From Bacteroidaceae bacterium (lineage in GTDB: Bacteria > Bacteroidota > Bacteroidia > Bacteroidales > Bacteroidaceae), in the NCBI GenBank assembly GCA_017416805.1, contig JAFQBB010000050.1:1-64000 (forward strand): a stretch of 64,000 bases of DNA. The letters are read 5' to 3'. Under the pieces are notes generated by a model that worked only from the letters and a program-made list of their open reading frames with translations, had not been told where the DNA came from and ran no database searches. How positions within the stretch are numbered: the first letter of the stretch is position 1; every line of letters starts with the position of its first letter. A program made the translations under genes and the position numbers. Below are positions 26,636 to 31,407 of this stretch, piece by piece.

Positions 26636-28903
26636 ATGGCAAAGTTTGAAAAGAAAGCTGGCAAGCACCTCAACAAGAGGACGTTGACCGATATGCTGGT
26701 GGACCTCTTCCGCCAGAATCCCGATTGGGAGTTCACCCTGAAACAGATTTATGCCGACCTGGCATTGAAGACCCACCCCCTGAAGATGCTCTGCATGGAT
26801 ATCCTCTCCGACCTCGTCCTCGACGAGTACGTCAGGGAGGTTTCGCGCGGGCGATTCAAGCTATGCAACCAGGGACAGACACTGGAGGGGACCTTCCAGC
26901 GCAAGAGCAACGGACGCAACACCTTCGTGCCCGACGATGGCAGCGAGCCGGTGAGCATTGCCGAACGGAATGCGGCACATGCCCTTGACGGAGACCGTGT
27001 GAAGGTGGCTCTCTTTGCCAAAAGGCGCGGACAGGGCAAAGAGGGTGAGGTGATAGAAATCATAGAGCGCACCAGAGACACCTTTGTGGGAACTCTGTGT
27101 GTGGAACGCAACTATGCCTTCCTCGTCACCGAAGGGGGCACGTTGGGACACGACATATTCATCCCCCGCAGCAAACTGAAGAACGGAAAGGACGGCGACA
27201 AGGCCGTGGTGAAGATAGTGGAATGGCCGGCACAGGCCAACAATCCCGTGGGGACAGTCATTGACATCCTGGGCCGCACGGGCGAGAACAATGCCGAGAT
27301 GCATGCCATCCTGGCCGAGTACGGGCTGCCCTACAAGTATCCCGAGGCAGTGGAGCGGGCTGCAGACCTGATTCCGGGCGACATACCCCAGCAGGAGTTG
27401 GAGTCGCGCCTGGACATGCGCGGAGTGACAACCTTCACCATCGACCCGGCCGACGCCAAAGACTTTGACGACGCACTGAGCATCAGACCCCTGAAGGAGG
27501 GACTCTGGGAGGTGGGTGTACACATTGCCGACGTGACCCACTACGTGGCCGAAGGAAACATCATTGACAAGGAGGCTTACCGCCGTGCCACCTCGGTCTA
27601 TCTGGTGGACCGCACCATACCCATGTTGCCCGAACGCCTGTGCAACGACCTCTGCTCGCTGCGTCCCGACGAGGACAAGCTGGCCTACTCCGTCATCTTC
27701 CACCTCAATGACCGGGCCGAGGTGAAGAAGCACCGCATAGTGCGCACCATCATACGCAGCCAGCGCCGGTTCACCTACGAGGAGGCACAGGAGATAATAG
27801 AGAAAGGCGGAGACCGGACCACCCAGCCCCAAGGGGAAGACCTGTTGGCCGAAGCCATCCTCACCCTGAACCATCTGGCCAAACAACTCACCGAGAAGCG
27901 ATTTGCCGCCGGAGCCATCAACTTTGACCGCATAGAGGTACGCTTCAACATTGACGAACAGGGCAAACCCACGGGGGTATATTTCAAAGAGTCCAAGGAA
28001 GCCAACAAACTCATCGAGGAATTCATGCTGCTGGCCAACCGGACAGTGGCCGAAGAGATAGGCCGCGTGCCGAAGAACAAGAAGGCAAAGGTCTTCCCGT
28101 ACCGCATACACGACCTGCCCGACCCCGAGAAACTGGAAAACCTGAAGCACTTCATTGCACGGTTCGGATACAAGCTGCGCAGTGGCGGCACCAAGGGAGA
28201 ACTGAACCGGAGCATCAACAAACTGCTGACCGACGTACACGGACGGGCCGAACAGAACCTCATCGAGATGGTTTCGCTCAAAACCATGCAGAAGGCAAAA
28301 TACAGCACACACAACATCGGACACTACGGACTGGCTTTCGACTACTACACACACTTCACCTCGCCCATACGCCGCTATCCGGACATGATGGTACACCGCC
28401 TACTCACACGATACCTCGGCGGCGGACGCACCGTGCAGCAACAGAAGTACGAGGAGATGTGCGAGCACTCCTCGGCCATGGAGCAACTGGCTGCCAGTGC
28501 CGAACGGAGCAGCATCAAGTACAAGCAGGTGGAGTTCATGAGCGAACACATCGGGCAGGTGTTTGACGGAGTGGTGAGCGGAGTGACCGACTGGGGCCTC
28601 TATGTGGAGATTGAGGAAAACAAGTGCGAAGGGTTCGTCTCCCTGCGCGACCTGGGCGACGACTACTACGAGTTCGACGACCGCAACTACTGCCTCATAG
28701 GCCGCCGCACACACCGCCGCTACAGCTTGGGCGACAAGATGAAGGTGCGGGTGGCCAGTGCCAACCTGGAGAAGAAACAGCTCAACTATGTCCCGGCCGA
28801 CGAGAACGCACGACCCTACGGACCACGAGGAGGAAGCAGACACCTGCGCGGCGAAGAACCCGACTTCAGCGAAGAGGGATGGGCCACAAACCATAAGAAG
28901 TGA
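26636..28903 (+). CDS. rnr: Ribonuclease R (3'-5' exoribonuclease)
   Basis: A 755-residue RNase II/R family enzyme. Order: N-terminal winged helix (1-75), cold-shock domains (about 80-235), RNB catalytic domain (about 245-600) with TIDPADAKDFDDALS carrying the Mg-binding aspartates, S1 domain (about 640-715), then a basic and acidic tail. RNase R degrades structured RNA in the cytosol. The start at 26636 (AKFEKKAGKHLNKRTLTDML) fits. The last residues, GEEPDFSEEGWATNHKK, share GEEPDFSEEGWA with the end of the DEAD-box helicase encoded convergently, with near-identical codons. That tail is not part of the catalytic core and may dock both enzymes on a common partner. Confidence 0.95.
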   Translation: MAKFEKKAGKHLNKRTLTDMLVDLFRQNPDWEFTLKQIYADLALKTHPLKMLCMDILSDLVLDEYVREVSRGRFKLCNQGQTLEGTFQRKSNGRNTFVPDDGSEPVSIAERNAAHALDGDRVKVALFAKRRGQGKEGEVIEIIERTRDTFVGTLCVERNYAFLVTEGGTLGHDIFIPRSKLKNGKDGDKAVVKIVEWPAQANNPVGTVIDILGRTGENNAEMHAILAEYGLPYKYPEAVERAADLIPGDIPQQELESRLDMRGVTTFTIDPADAKDFDDALSIRPLKEGLWEVGVHIADVTHYVAEGNIIDKEAYRRATSVYLVDRTIPMLPERLCNDLCSLRPDEDKLAYSVIFHLNDRAEVKKHRIVRTIIRSQRRFTYEEAQEIIEKGGDRTTQPQGEDLLAEAILTLNHLAKQLTEKRFAAGAINFDRIEVRFNIDEQGKPTGVYFKESKEANKLIEEFMLLANRTVAEEIGRVPKNKKAKVFPYRIHDLPDPEKLENLKHFIARFGYKLRSGGTKGELNRSINKLLTDVHGRAEQNLIEMVSLKTMQKAKYSTHNIGHYGLAFDYYTHFTSPIRRYPDMMVHRLLTRYLGGGRTVQQQKYEEMCEHSSAMEQLAASAERSSIKYKQVEFMSEHIGQVFDGVVSGVTDWGLYVEIEENKCEGFVSLRDLGDDYYEFDDRNYCLIGRRTHRRYSLGDKMKVRVASANLEKKQLNYVPADENARPYGPRGGSRHLRGEEPDFSEEGWATNHKK

Positions 28904-29121
28904 TTAAGAAAAATACGGACACATAAGAACAAGGCGGACACCCGAATCAGAGGGTCTGTCCCACCCTGCGCAAACAGAGGCAACCACCCCCTCGGCCCTG
29001 TATGTCGAGATTGCAAGAGAGGCAGCAAAGTAAAATGGTAAAACACTCATATACAGAATGTTGCAAGAAACACTAAGAGATTGCTGACCCTATCCGGAAG
29101 ACCCACTTGTCTCCCTGCCGA

Positions 29122-29206
29122 AGACACAGGTGTGTCTCACCTCAAGACACAGGTATGTCTCACCCCGAGACACAGGTGGGTGTCAAGACAAGACACAGGT
29201 GTGTCT
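29122..29206. repeat. Four tandem 23-bp repeats with a 16-bp palindromic core
   Basis: Copies of AGACACAGGTGTGTCT or close variants begin at 29122, 29145, 29168 and 29191, exactly 23 bp apart. Each core is palindromic (AGACACA/TGTGTCT). The array lies between the convergent rnr and helicase genes, just before a strong bidirectional terminator. It could be a protein-binding array or a row of small RNA hairpins. The spacers are only 7 bp, so it is not CRISPR. The remaining sequence from 28904 to 29370 holds no supportable gene. Confidence 0.8.
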
Positions 29207-29230
29207 CTCCGACCCACCCAAGCAGGTCAC

Positions 29231-29271
29231 AAAAAGAGGCCATGGGAAGTAACCTCCCACGGCCTCTTTTT
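29231..29271. terminator. Bidirectional intrinsic terminator between rnr and the helicase
   Basis: AAAAAGAGGCCATGGGA (29231-29247) pairs with TCCCACGGCCTCTTTTT (29255-29271), one mismatch, 7-nt loop. A-run and T-run flank the stem on both sides, so it can end transcription in either direction. Confidence 0.85.
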
Positions 29272-29370
29272 GTGGTTATAAATGTTTACGAATCCAAACA
29301 CTCCGGGAGTTCAGCAAATCACCCCCTCTTTCATTCTTTCATCATTAATCATTCATTCTTCACCTGCCCG

Positions 29371-31407
29371 TCACCCTTTCTTCGGAGTGCGTCGTGCCCA
29401 CCCCTCTTCGCTGAAGTCGGGCTCTTCGCCCTGCAAGGGACGGTCATTGTGCTGGAAGAACTGCTTCCAGTCATCCTTCTTCTTAGGTCCCCGAGGGGCA
29501 GTGTATCCCCGCTCCTCGCGCGAAGGTTTGCGGCGCACCTCGGCCTGTTGGGCCTGCTGCCGTTTCTTCGACTTCTTCTGGAACTGCTCAAAGGGGTCGG
29601 CATCGCTCATAGCCTCCCTCTCCCACTTGGCAGCCCGGCTCTTCTTCGATGGCCTGGCCGCCTGTTGCAACGCCTCGCGGGCCGTAGTCCGACGGGCCTT
29701 CCCTGCAGAGGCATCACCCCCCTCATCGGCCACCTCGACCACCACCTTGCGGCCATTCACCTTCACACCTCGGTTCAACGCCTTCACCACCCGGGCCGCA
29801 TCCTCCTCGGCCACATCAAAGAAGGAGAAGTTCTTCATCAGGTCAATGCGCCCAATCTGCGGCTTGCCTTGCACGTGGCGGTTCACCAAGTCTATGACCT
29901 GCGCCGCAAAGAAGTTGTCCGTCTTTCCCAAATTCAGGAACAGGCGCGTATAGCCCTCCTCGGCCTTGCGGCCACCCTTGGCTCCACCCCTGCGGCCCGA
30001 AGCACCTTCGCCCTGAGCCTTACCCTCCTTGCGCGTACGCTCGGTGGGCACCTCAATGTCGGGCATCTTGCTGTAATAGTCAATGAAGCGGCTCATCTCG
30101 CGGCTCACAATGCGCTTCACCAGGTCCTCCTTCTCCAGCCACTCCAGCTTGCGGAGCACCTCATGCATGAATGGGGCAATCAGCTCCTCATTCACCTGCA
30201 CACGCTCAATGTCGTCAATCCCCTTATAGAGCTGCTTCTCGCATATCTGCTGTCCGGTAGGAATCTCACCCCGCAGGAACTGCTTCCCGATGATACGTTC
30301 AATGGCACGCATCTTCCCCTTTTCACGCACGTGGATGATGGCAATGCTGGTACCCGTCTTTCCGGCCCGTCCGGTACGCCCGCTGCGGTGAGTGTAGCTC
30401 TCGGTATCGTCAGGCAGACCGTAGTTGATGACGTGAGTCAGGTCATCCACATCCAGTCCGCGTGCGGCCACATCAGTAGCCACCAGCAACTGCGTACGCC
30501 GCTGGCGGAACTTCTGCATGGTCAGGTCGCGCTGCTGCTGGGACAACTCCCCATGAAGCGCATCAGCATTGTACCCATCCTGGATAAGCTTGTCTGCAAT
30601 CTCCTGCGTCTCCAACCGTGTGCGGCAGAAAATGATGGCATATATCTTGGGGTTATAGTCAGCAATGCGCTTCAGCGCCAAGTACTTGTCCTTGGCATGG
30701 ACAAGGTAATACAGATGGTTCACATTCTTGCTCCCCTCATTCTTGGTGCCAATGACTATCTCGCGGGCATCACGCAGGTAGTTCTTGCTGATACGCGAAA
30801 TCTCCGGACTCATCGTAGCCGAGAAGAGCAGCGTGTTCCTCTCCTCGGGCACACCTGCCAGAATCGTGTTGATGCTCTCCGTAAATCCCATGTTCAGCAT
30901 CTCGTCAGCCTCATCCATCACCACATTCTCAATGGCCTGCAGGCTCACCACACCACGCTCCATCAAGTCAATGAGCCTGCCGGGAGTGGCCACAATGACA
31001 TGCACCCCCCTGCGCAACGAACGTATCTGGCTCTCAATGGACGAGCCACCATACACCGGCAACACATGCAGGCCGTCAAGGTAACGGGAATAATCATTGA
31101 GATCGCCCGCAATCTGAAGGCACAACTCGCGCGTGGGGCAAAGAATCAGCGCTTGCGGCTCCACACGGCCCACATCGACCTTCTGCAGCAAAGGCAGACC
31201 GAAAGCCGCCGTCTTGCCCGTACCCGTCTGGGCCAAGGCCACCACATCATTACCATTCCCCAACAAATAGGGAATCACCTCCTCCTGAACCGGCATGGGA
31301 TTCTCATACCCCAACTCCTCTATGGCACGGCGTATCGGTTCACATACGCCCAGTTCCTCAAAAGTCTTCAATGTATTCCAATTAACTATTTGGGCGCGAA
31401 GATACAC
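29371..31407 (-). CDS. DEAD-box ATP-dependent RNA helicase (DeaD/CsdA type)
   Basis: A 678-residue helicase. Q motif (ELGYENPMPVQEEVIP, about 30-45), motif I AQTGTGKT, motif II DEAD (VVMDEADEMLN), motif III SAT, and motif VI HRSGRTGRAGKTG are intact. A DbpA/CsdA-type RNA-binding domain follows the helicase core (about 475-550, TRLFLNLGKTDNFFAAQVIDLVN). The C-terminal about 120 residues are Arg/Lys/Glu-rich and disordered, ending GEEPDFSEEGWARRTPKKG. It unwinds RNA in ribosome assembly or decay. The last 22 residues share a 12-residue block with RNase R, the neighbour across the terminator. The promoter is a full match at 31397-31428. Confidence 0.93.
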   Translation of the reverse strand: MYLRAQIVNWNTLKTFEELGVCEPIRRAIEELGYENPMPVQEEVIPYLLGNGNDVVALAQTGTGKTAAFGLPLLQKVDVGRVEPQALILCPTRELCLQIAGDLNDYSRYLDGLHVLPVYGGSSIESQIRSLRRGVHVIVATPGRLIDLMERGVVSLQAIENVVMDEADEMLNMGFTESINTILAGVPEERNTLLFSATMSPEISRISKNYLRDAREIVIGTKNEGSKNVNHLYYLVHAKDKYLALKRIADYNPKIYAIIFCRTRLETQEIADKLIQDGYNADALHGELSQQQRDLTMQKFRQRRTQLLVATDVAARGLDVDDLTHVINYGLPDDTESYTHRSGRTGRAGKTGTSIAIIHVREKGKMRAIERIIGKQFLRGEIPTGQQICEKQLYKGIDDIERVQVNEELIAPFMHEVLRKLEWLEKEDLVKRIVSREMSRFIDYYSKMPDIEVPTERTRKEGKAQGEGASGRRGGAKGGRKAEEGYTRLFLNLGKTDNFFAAQVIDLVNRHVQGKPQIGRIDLMKNFSFFDVAEEDAARVVKALNRGVKVNGRKVVVEVADEGGDASAGKARRTTAREALQQAARPSKKSRAAKWEREAMSDADPFEQFQKKSKKRQQAQQAEVRRKPSREERGYTAPRGPKKKDDWKQFFQHNDRPLQGEEPDFSEEGWARRTPKKG

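Follow-up and report, generated by a model that had tools for sequence, protein, structure and literature searches.

What could lead two enzymes with unrelated folds to end in the same peptide? The question is raised by two convergent genes in the window analyzed here, a stretch of 64,000 nucleotides from contig JAFQBB010000050.1 of a Bacteroidaceae bacterium. The gene on the forward strand (26636–28903) encodes an RNase R of 755 amino acids with the domain order CSD-RNB-S1 (TIGR02063, PF00773, PF00575); its TIGR02063 score of 777 bits exceeds the cut-off of 598 and places it within the RNase R family. The gene on the reverse strand (29371–31407) encodes a DEAD-box RNA helicase of 678 amino acids with a DbpA RNA-binding domain (PF00270, PF00271, PF03880). 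The best-scoring NCBIfam model for this helicase is CshA (NF053631), named degradosome RNA helicase, yet its 455 bits fall below the cut-off of 646; against the DbpA equivalog PRK11776, the protein reaches 405.5 bits, which is likewise below the cut-off (524). The start of the helicase is uncertain: the listed codon is a GTG at 31407, and in nearly all rows the matches of relatives begin between residues 2 and 15.

The C-terminal ends of the RNase R and of this DbpA/CshA-like helicase have GEEPDFSEEGWA in common, and each of them reads as an earlier note on this DNA had claimed. The tail acquired by RNase R, SRHLRGEEPDFSEEGWATNHKK, occupies 28835–28900 on the forward strand, with the core PDFSEEGW at 28859–28882; the helicase tail, DRPLQGEEPDFSEEGWARRTPKKG, occupies 29374–29445 on the reverse strand, with the same core at 29398–29421. 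Both tails lie outside the catalytic cores, also as previously described, and are conserved. The PDFSEEGW core is invariant in the tail alignment, whose rows were chosen by a pattern requiring exactly those residues. The helicase tail contains another block, SREERGYTAPRGPKKKDDWKQFFQHN (29446–29523, reverse strand), which was tallied on helicase C-termini with loose patterns and has the form SREERGY..PRG..DDWKQFF. The DDWKQFF part of this block is missing from RNase R, which therefore holds at most part of the helicase tail.

Chance is excluded as an explanation for the likeness of the two tails at the protein level. Within the organism's own genome – a draft of 3.16 Mb that is 91% complete – the coded motif occurs at two places, and a tail profile yields two matches (1.8e-16 and 6.5e-14), followed only by two at E 1.1; this profile contained both window tails, which makes its two E-values partly circular. 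An independent profile was built from 32 helicase tails and zero RNase R rows and run with a search space of 12,000. It detects the RNase R tail in all six members of the clade described below (E 1.2e-9 to 2e-7) and gives no match in the tail-less RNase Rs that were included (G221, G077, G008 and rows from L070–L149). The motif and profile searches of the draft genome revealed no other protein with the tail, and it is absent from the two paralogous DEAD helicases found at E <= 1e-20, whose ends differ.

Judged from its distribution in the family, the tail belongs to one DEAD-box helicase. The pattern PDFxEEGW was observed at 84 places in 79 of 251 family genomes, and all 84 could be assigned: 78 to the helicase and six to RNase R. 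These assignments are based on reading frames for 83 places and, for G010, on a helicase match covering the place; the RNase R identity for G123 and G207 comes from the RNase R search of the genus genomes. When 301 genomes of the family were scanned with a profile, 124 matches were obtained in 117 genomes from 12 of 30 genera, namely 116 in the helicase, six in RNase R, one in a frame of 21 amino acids (L269) and one in a non-gene frame of 36 amino acids. Two strong matches in one genome occur solely where RNase R is tailed, in six cases. Apart from the two short frames, no unrelated protein with the tail emerged from the family scans. Hence, the search that the earlier note had proposed places the tail, within what was searched, on no unrelated protein.

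Helicase orthologues do not systematically retain the tail. In 61 genomes 54 helicases were found, and 53 of these (G010 was left out) entered the survey: 21 end in PDF/PNFxEEGW, and elsewhere the motif is missing or decayed, so that, whatever the role of the tail, much of the family can do without it. The DDWxxFF-like block just upstream, scored with a loose pattern, is commoner (39 of 53), and an SREERGY-like block, likewise scored loosely, is present in 24 of 53. Beyond the family, a scan of 395 genomes of the phylum matched four, all of them among the five belonging to the window's own family; among the 390 from elsewhere in the phylum, there was no match to the exact DNA pattern, which variants would escape. 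No relative of the helicase was detected in viral contigs and no relative of the peptide in solved structures (one match, E 0.26), and a literature search for the peptide letters returned zero papers.

On RNase R, the distribution of the tail is far narrower. RNase R was found in 13 of the 15 genus genomes (not in G109 and G193). Six of the 13 proteins carry the tail (the window, G123, G137, G151, G165 and G207), and seven are tail-less (G008, G036, G058, G077, G094, G179 and G221). With the exception of G221, which has a longer basic end, the tail-less proteins end five to eight residues past the LEKKQL of the S1 domain. Among further Bacteroidales, the tail occurs in none of 79 RNase R frames from the best 80 named loci; the named RNase R relatives among the matches listed are Bacteroidales. 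In the RNase R tree of 22 rows – from which G207 and G179 were left out, being in pieces, and to which Phocaeicola L070 contributed no row – the tailed proteins available at full length, five in number, group as a single clade with a support of 100/100, corresponding to one change. A single tailed clade among otherwise tail-less RNase Rs demonstrates one gain of the tail, in the ancestor of one clade inside the window's genus. Of the absence from orthologues of both enzymes that would have refuted the earlier note, half is observed: the tail is absent from the RNase R orthologues read outside the clade, but present on helicase orthologues in 12 of 30 genera.

Once gained, the tail was kept. 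Over its 13 codons in six sequences, a small sample for an estimate of constraint, the RNase R tail has a pS of 0.65, a pN of 0.065 and a pN/pS of 0.10. This ratio is close to that of a 72-codon stretch of the S1 domain (0.084), whereas the 19-codon linker before the tail has a higher one (0.24). As far as codon comparison can tell, these values show that selection at the peptide level has kept the RNase R tail, with synonymous sites that are widely diverged.

At the DNA level, direct comparison confirms that positions 28850–28884 and the inverse of 29396–29430 agree at 33 of 35 bases, within a 40-nt inverted repeat at 90%. The earlier note took the agreement at third-codon bases to make recent duplication or gene conversion likely. 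If such an event involving the neighbouring 3' ends were the explanation, the likeness would have little functional meaning. Several observations point in this direction: under the codon usage of the window, two independent copies of the peptide are expected to agree at a mean of 28.3 of 35 bases (33 or more at P = 0.0099); in the window, the two genes lie next to each other and converge; within the 35 nt, the window RNase R tail agrees with its own helicase at 33 bases and with other RNase R tails at no more than 31 (G123); only the window RNase R reads GWA after the core, the other RNase R tails having GWQ-stop; and the synonymous difference of the own pair (0.50) is smaller than the cross-genome mean (0.75, 25 pairs). 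However, three helicases of genus g3 (L008, L009 and L011) match the window RNase R stretch at 34 of 35 bases and thus beat its own helicase, and when the comparison is extended to 42 nt, the window tail agrees better with the RNase R of G123 (37) than with its own helicase (36). The tails have also diverged within genomes (mean synonymous difference 0.63, five pairs). Furthermore, the other five clade members possess a tailed RNase R with no helicase in at least 8.9 kb downstream; the adjacency invoked for a recent conversion is thus not found in them. A recent exchange was therefore not established; we regard it as very improbable, and in view of these comparisons it does not seem to be needed to explain the likeness. 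As a side observation, the window RNase R continues after GW with ATNHKK (28883–28903), and the five other clade members have Q, then stop.

Among clade members, RNase R and the helicase adjoin only in the window. The two genes 5' of RNase R – a putative epimerase and a PAP2-type protein, by our reading of the sequence – are kept across the clade and in G221. Because these 5' genes are kept while the five other members have no helicase downstream, the RNase R/helicase junction of the window represents a derived rearrangement or, since a repeat in the gap recurs on four other contigs, possibly an assembly join. Against the flanking sequences retrieved from relatives, this gap between the genes (28904–29370) has no clear match (best E 1.0). 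The repeat (29098–29231) consists of five tandem imperfect palindromes of the type GACACAGGTGTGTCTC with a spacing of 23 bp, and its unit has nine matches in the genome overall. A hairpin at 29228–29274 has arms of 23 bp (91%) and an A/T run at either end, and may terminate transcription of the two convergent genes; the terminator scan does not list it. In Prevotella brunnea (L111, 2310–8308), RNase R and the helicase are also convergent, about 1.8 kb apart, and the tail is on the helicase only. Nearness of the genes as the cause of the shared tail was rejected, given that the RNase R of this pair is tail-less.

If the likeness is not recent, it could have arisen either by old copying or by independent evolution of a docking motif on RNase R, in which no helicase DNA was copied. 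The second explanation would account for the wide divergence of synonymous sites and for the lack of a DNA trace of copying beyond about 40 nt. Nevertheless, the likeness covers about 15 residues (RPLRGEEPDFSEEGW) and includes RPLRG, which is itself variable among helicases; in our judgement, a motif of this length seldom arises twice. The linker of RNase R contains an element, Y..PRG, that is likewise similar to the helicase tail (shuffling P 0.006–0.033); this is weak evidence, from an element chosen post hoc. We consider convergence unlikely. The most probable source of the tail is an old event at the origin of the clade in which coding DNA of the helicase was copied onto RNase R, based on the extent of the likeness, with the linker element as a weakly suggestive addition.

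What might the tail do? We propose, as the best functional reading but an evenly balanced judgement from comparison of sequences, that the helicase and RNase R tails dock on a common partner. The tail would be a short linear binding motif, PDFxEEGW, in a charged and probably flexible C-terminus, and in the ancestor of the clade RNase R would have gained a copy of the helicase motif at its own C-terminus. The Phe and Trp together with the acidic residues of the peptide may enter a pocket on the partner, which in turn could bring both enzymes to the same RNA substrates or into the same complex. There, the helicase would open structure and RNase R would degrade in the 3'-5' direction; the partner itself might act in RNA decay or ribosome assembly. 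This reading is suggested by the invariant core, its charged surroundings and its presence on two unrelated folds in one process, and by the fact that the motif was gained as a unit and lost elsewhere. The docking idea put forward in the earlier note hence appears to fit the evolution of the tail, and the interpretation given there is, on the whole, partly supported.

Alternatively, a conserved terminal peptide could act inside its own protein, on stability or on RNA. In that case the tail would shield or expose the C-terminus, tune RNA binding or affect stability, separately for each enzyme. A precedent is the lysine-rich C-terminal domain known from E. coli RNase R, as presented in the cited parts of PMC3949413, and the tail occupies the same position. 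On the other hand, P-D-F-x-E-E-G-W is constrained on both of the unrelated folds more specifically than charge or disorder would need, and the short ends of six of the seven tail-less genus RNase Rs leave no K-rich region that the tail could have replaced. We therefore find an action in cis doubtful.

Returning to the proposed docking on a common partner, the own genome contains one match to RNase E/G, an open frame of 556 amino acids in which 405 of 415 model positions are matched; it therefore has no long scaffold arm. The PNPase of this genome matches above the cut-off. We tentatively suggest – with somewhat less confidence than for docking as such – that PDFxEEGW serves as a tag for docking on a previously undescribed assembly of RNA decay or ribosome maturation, in a Bacteroidales family without an RNase E scaffold, that a partner bears the pocket, and that RNase R was recruited in one clade by gaining the tag. 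If this is true, the RNase R tail represents a natural gain-of-docking event. A portable conserved peptide on the helicase and on the RNase R of one clade would be a direct bait for seeking the complex, and tail-bearing and tail-less sister genomes would provide a natural experiment.

Three known systems invite comparison, each considered as far as the cited portions of the sources describe it. E. coli RNase R is brought to ribosomes rescued by tmRNA through a flexible C-terminal K-rich domain, which has also been connected with the stability of the enzyme (PMC3949413). The tail described here is likewise a C-terminal extension after S1, probably flexible, that would recruit RNase R to a partner; its character, however, is acidic-aromatic, a helicase shares it, and among RNase Rs it is confined to one clade. 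A K-rich domain as such was rejected for the window RNase R, which has two lysines after LEKKQL, both of them its last residues. The GWW motif of Caulobacter RNase E (EKPRRGWWRR) binds PNPase, and replacing either Trp with Ala severely disrupts the binding (PMC3376730). Like that motif, the tail is C-terminal and combines Gly-Trp with basic residues; however, Gly-Trp is followed by Ala in most aligned tails and by Gln in the other RNase Rs, and the acidic PDFxEE part has no counterpart in the Caulobacter motif as given there. Identity with the PNPase-binding motif was rejected: it needs two adjacent Trp, and both window tails read GWA. In RNase E degradosomes, RNases and a DEAD-box helicase are gathered by short linear motifs of disordered C-termini (PMC11964227), and a complex of RNase R with a helicase, RNase E-RNase R-RhlE, was purified from Pseudomonas syringae Lz4W (PMC3071783). 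For Bacteroidetes/Chlorobi, the latter source gives RNase E/G lengths of 503–570 amino acids and, in the portion cited, no complex predicted or verified as of 2011; no degradosome of this group is named in literature titles among the matches listed. An RNase E-scaffold degradosome was rejected as the identity of the present system, which does not have the long C-terminal arm on RNase E. The likeness to the RNase E-scaffold degradosomes of E. coli, P. aeruginosa and Lz4W, as far as these sources go, consists in short C-terminal motifs that concern RNases and a helicase; the difference is that the motif sits there on RNase E, but here on the helicase and RNase R themselves.
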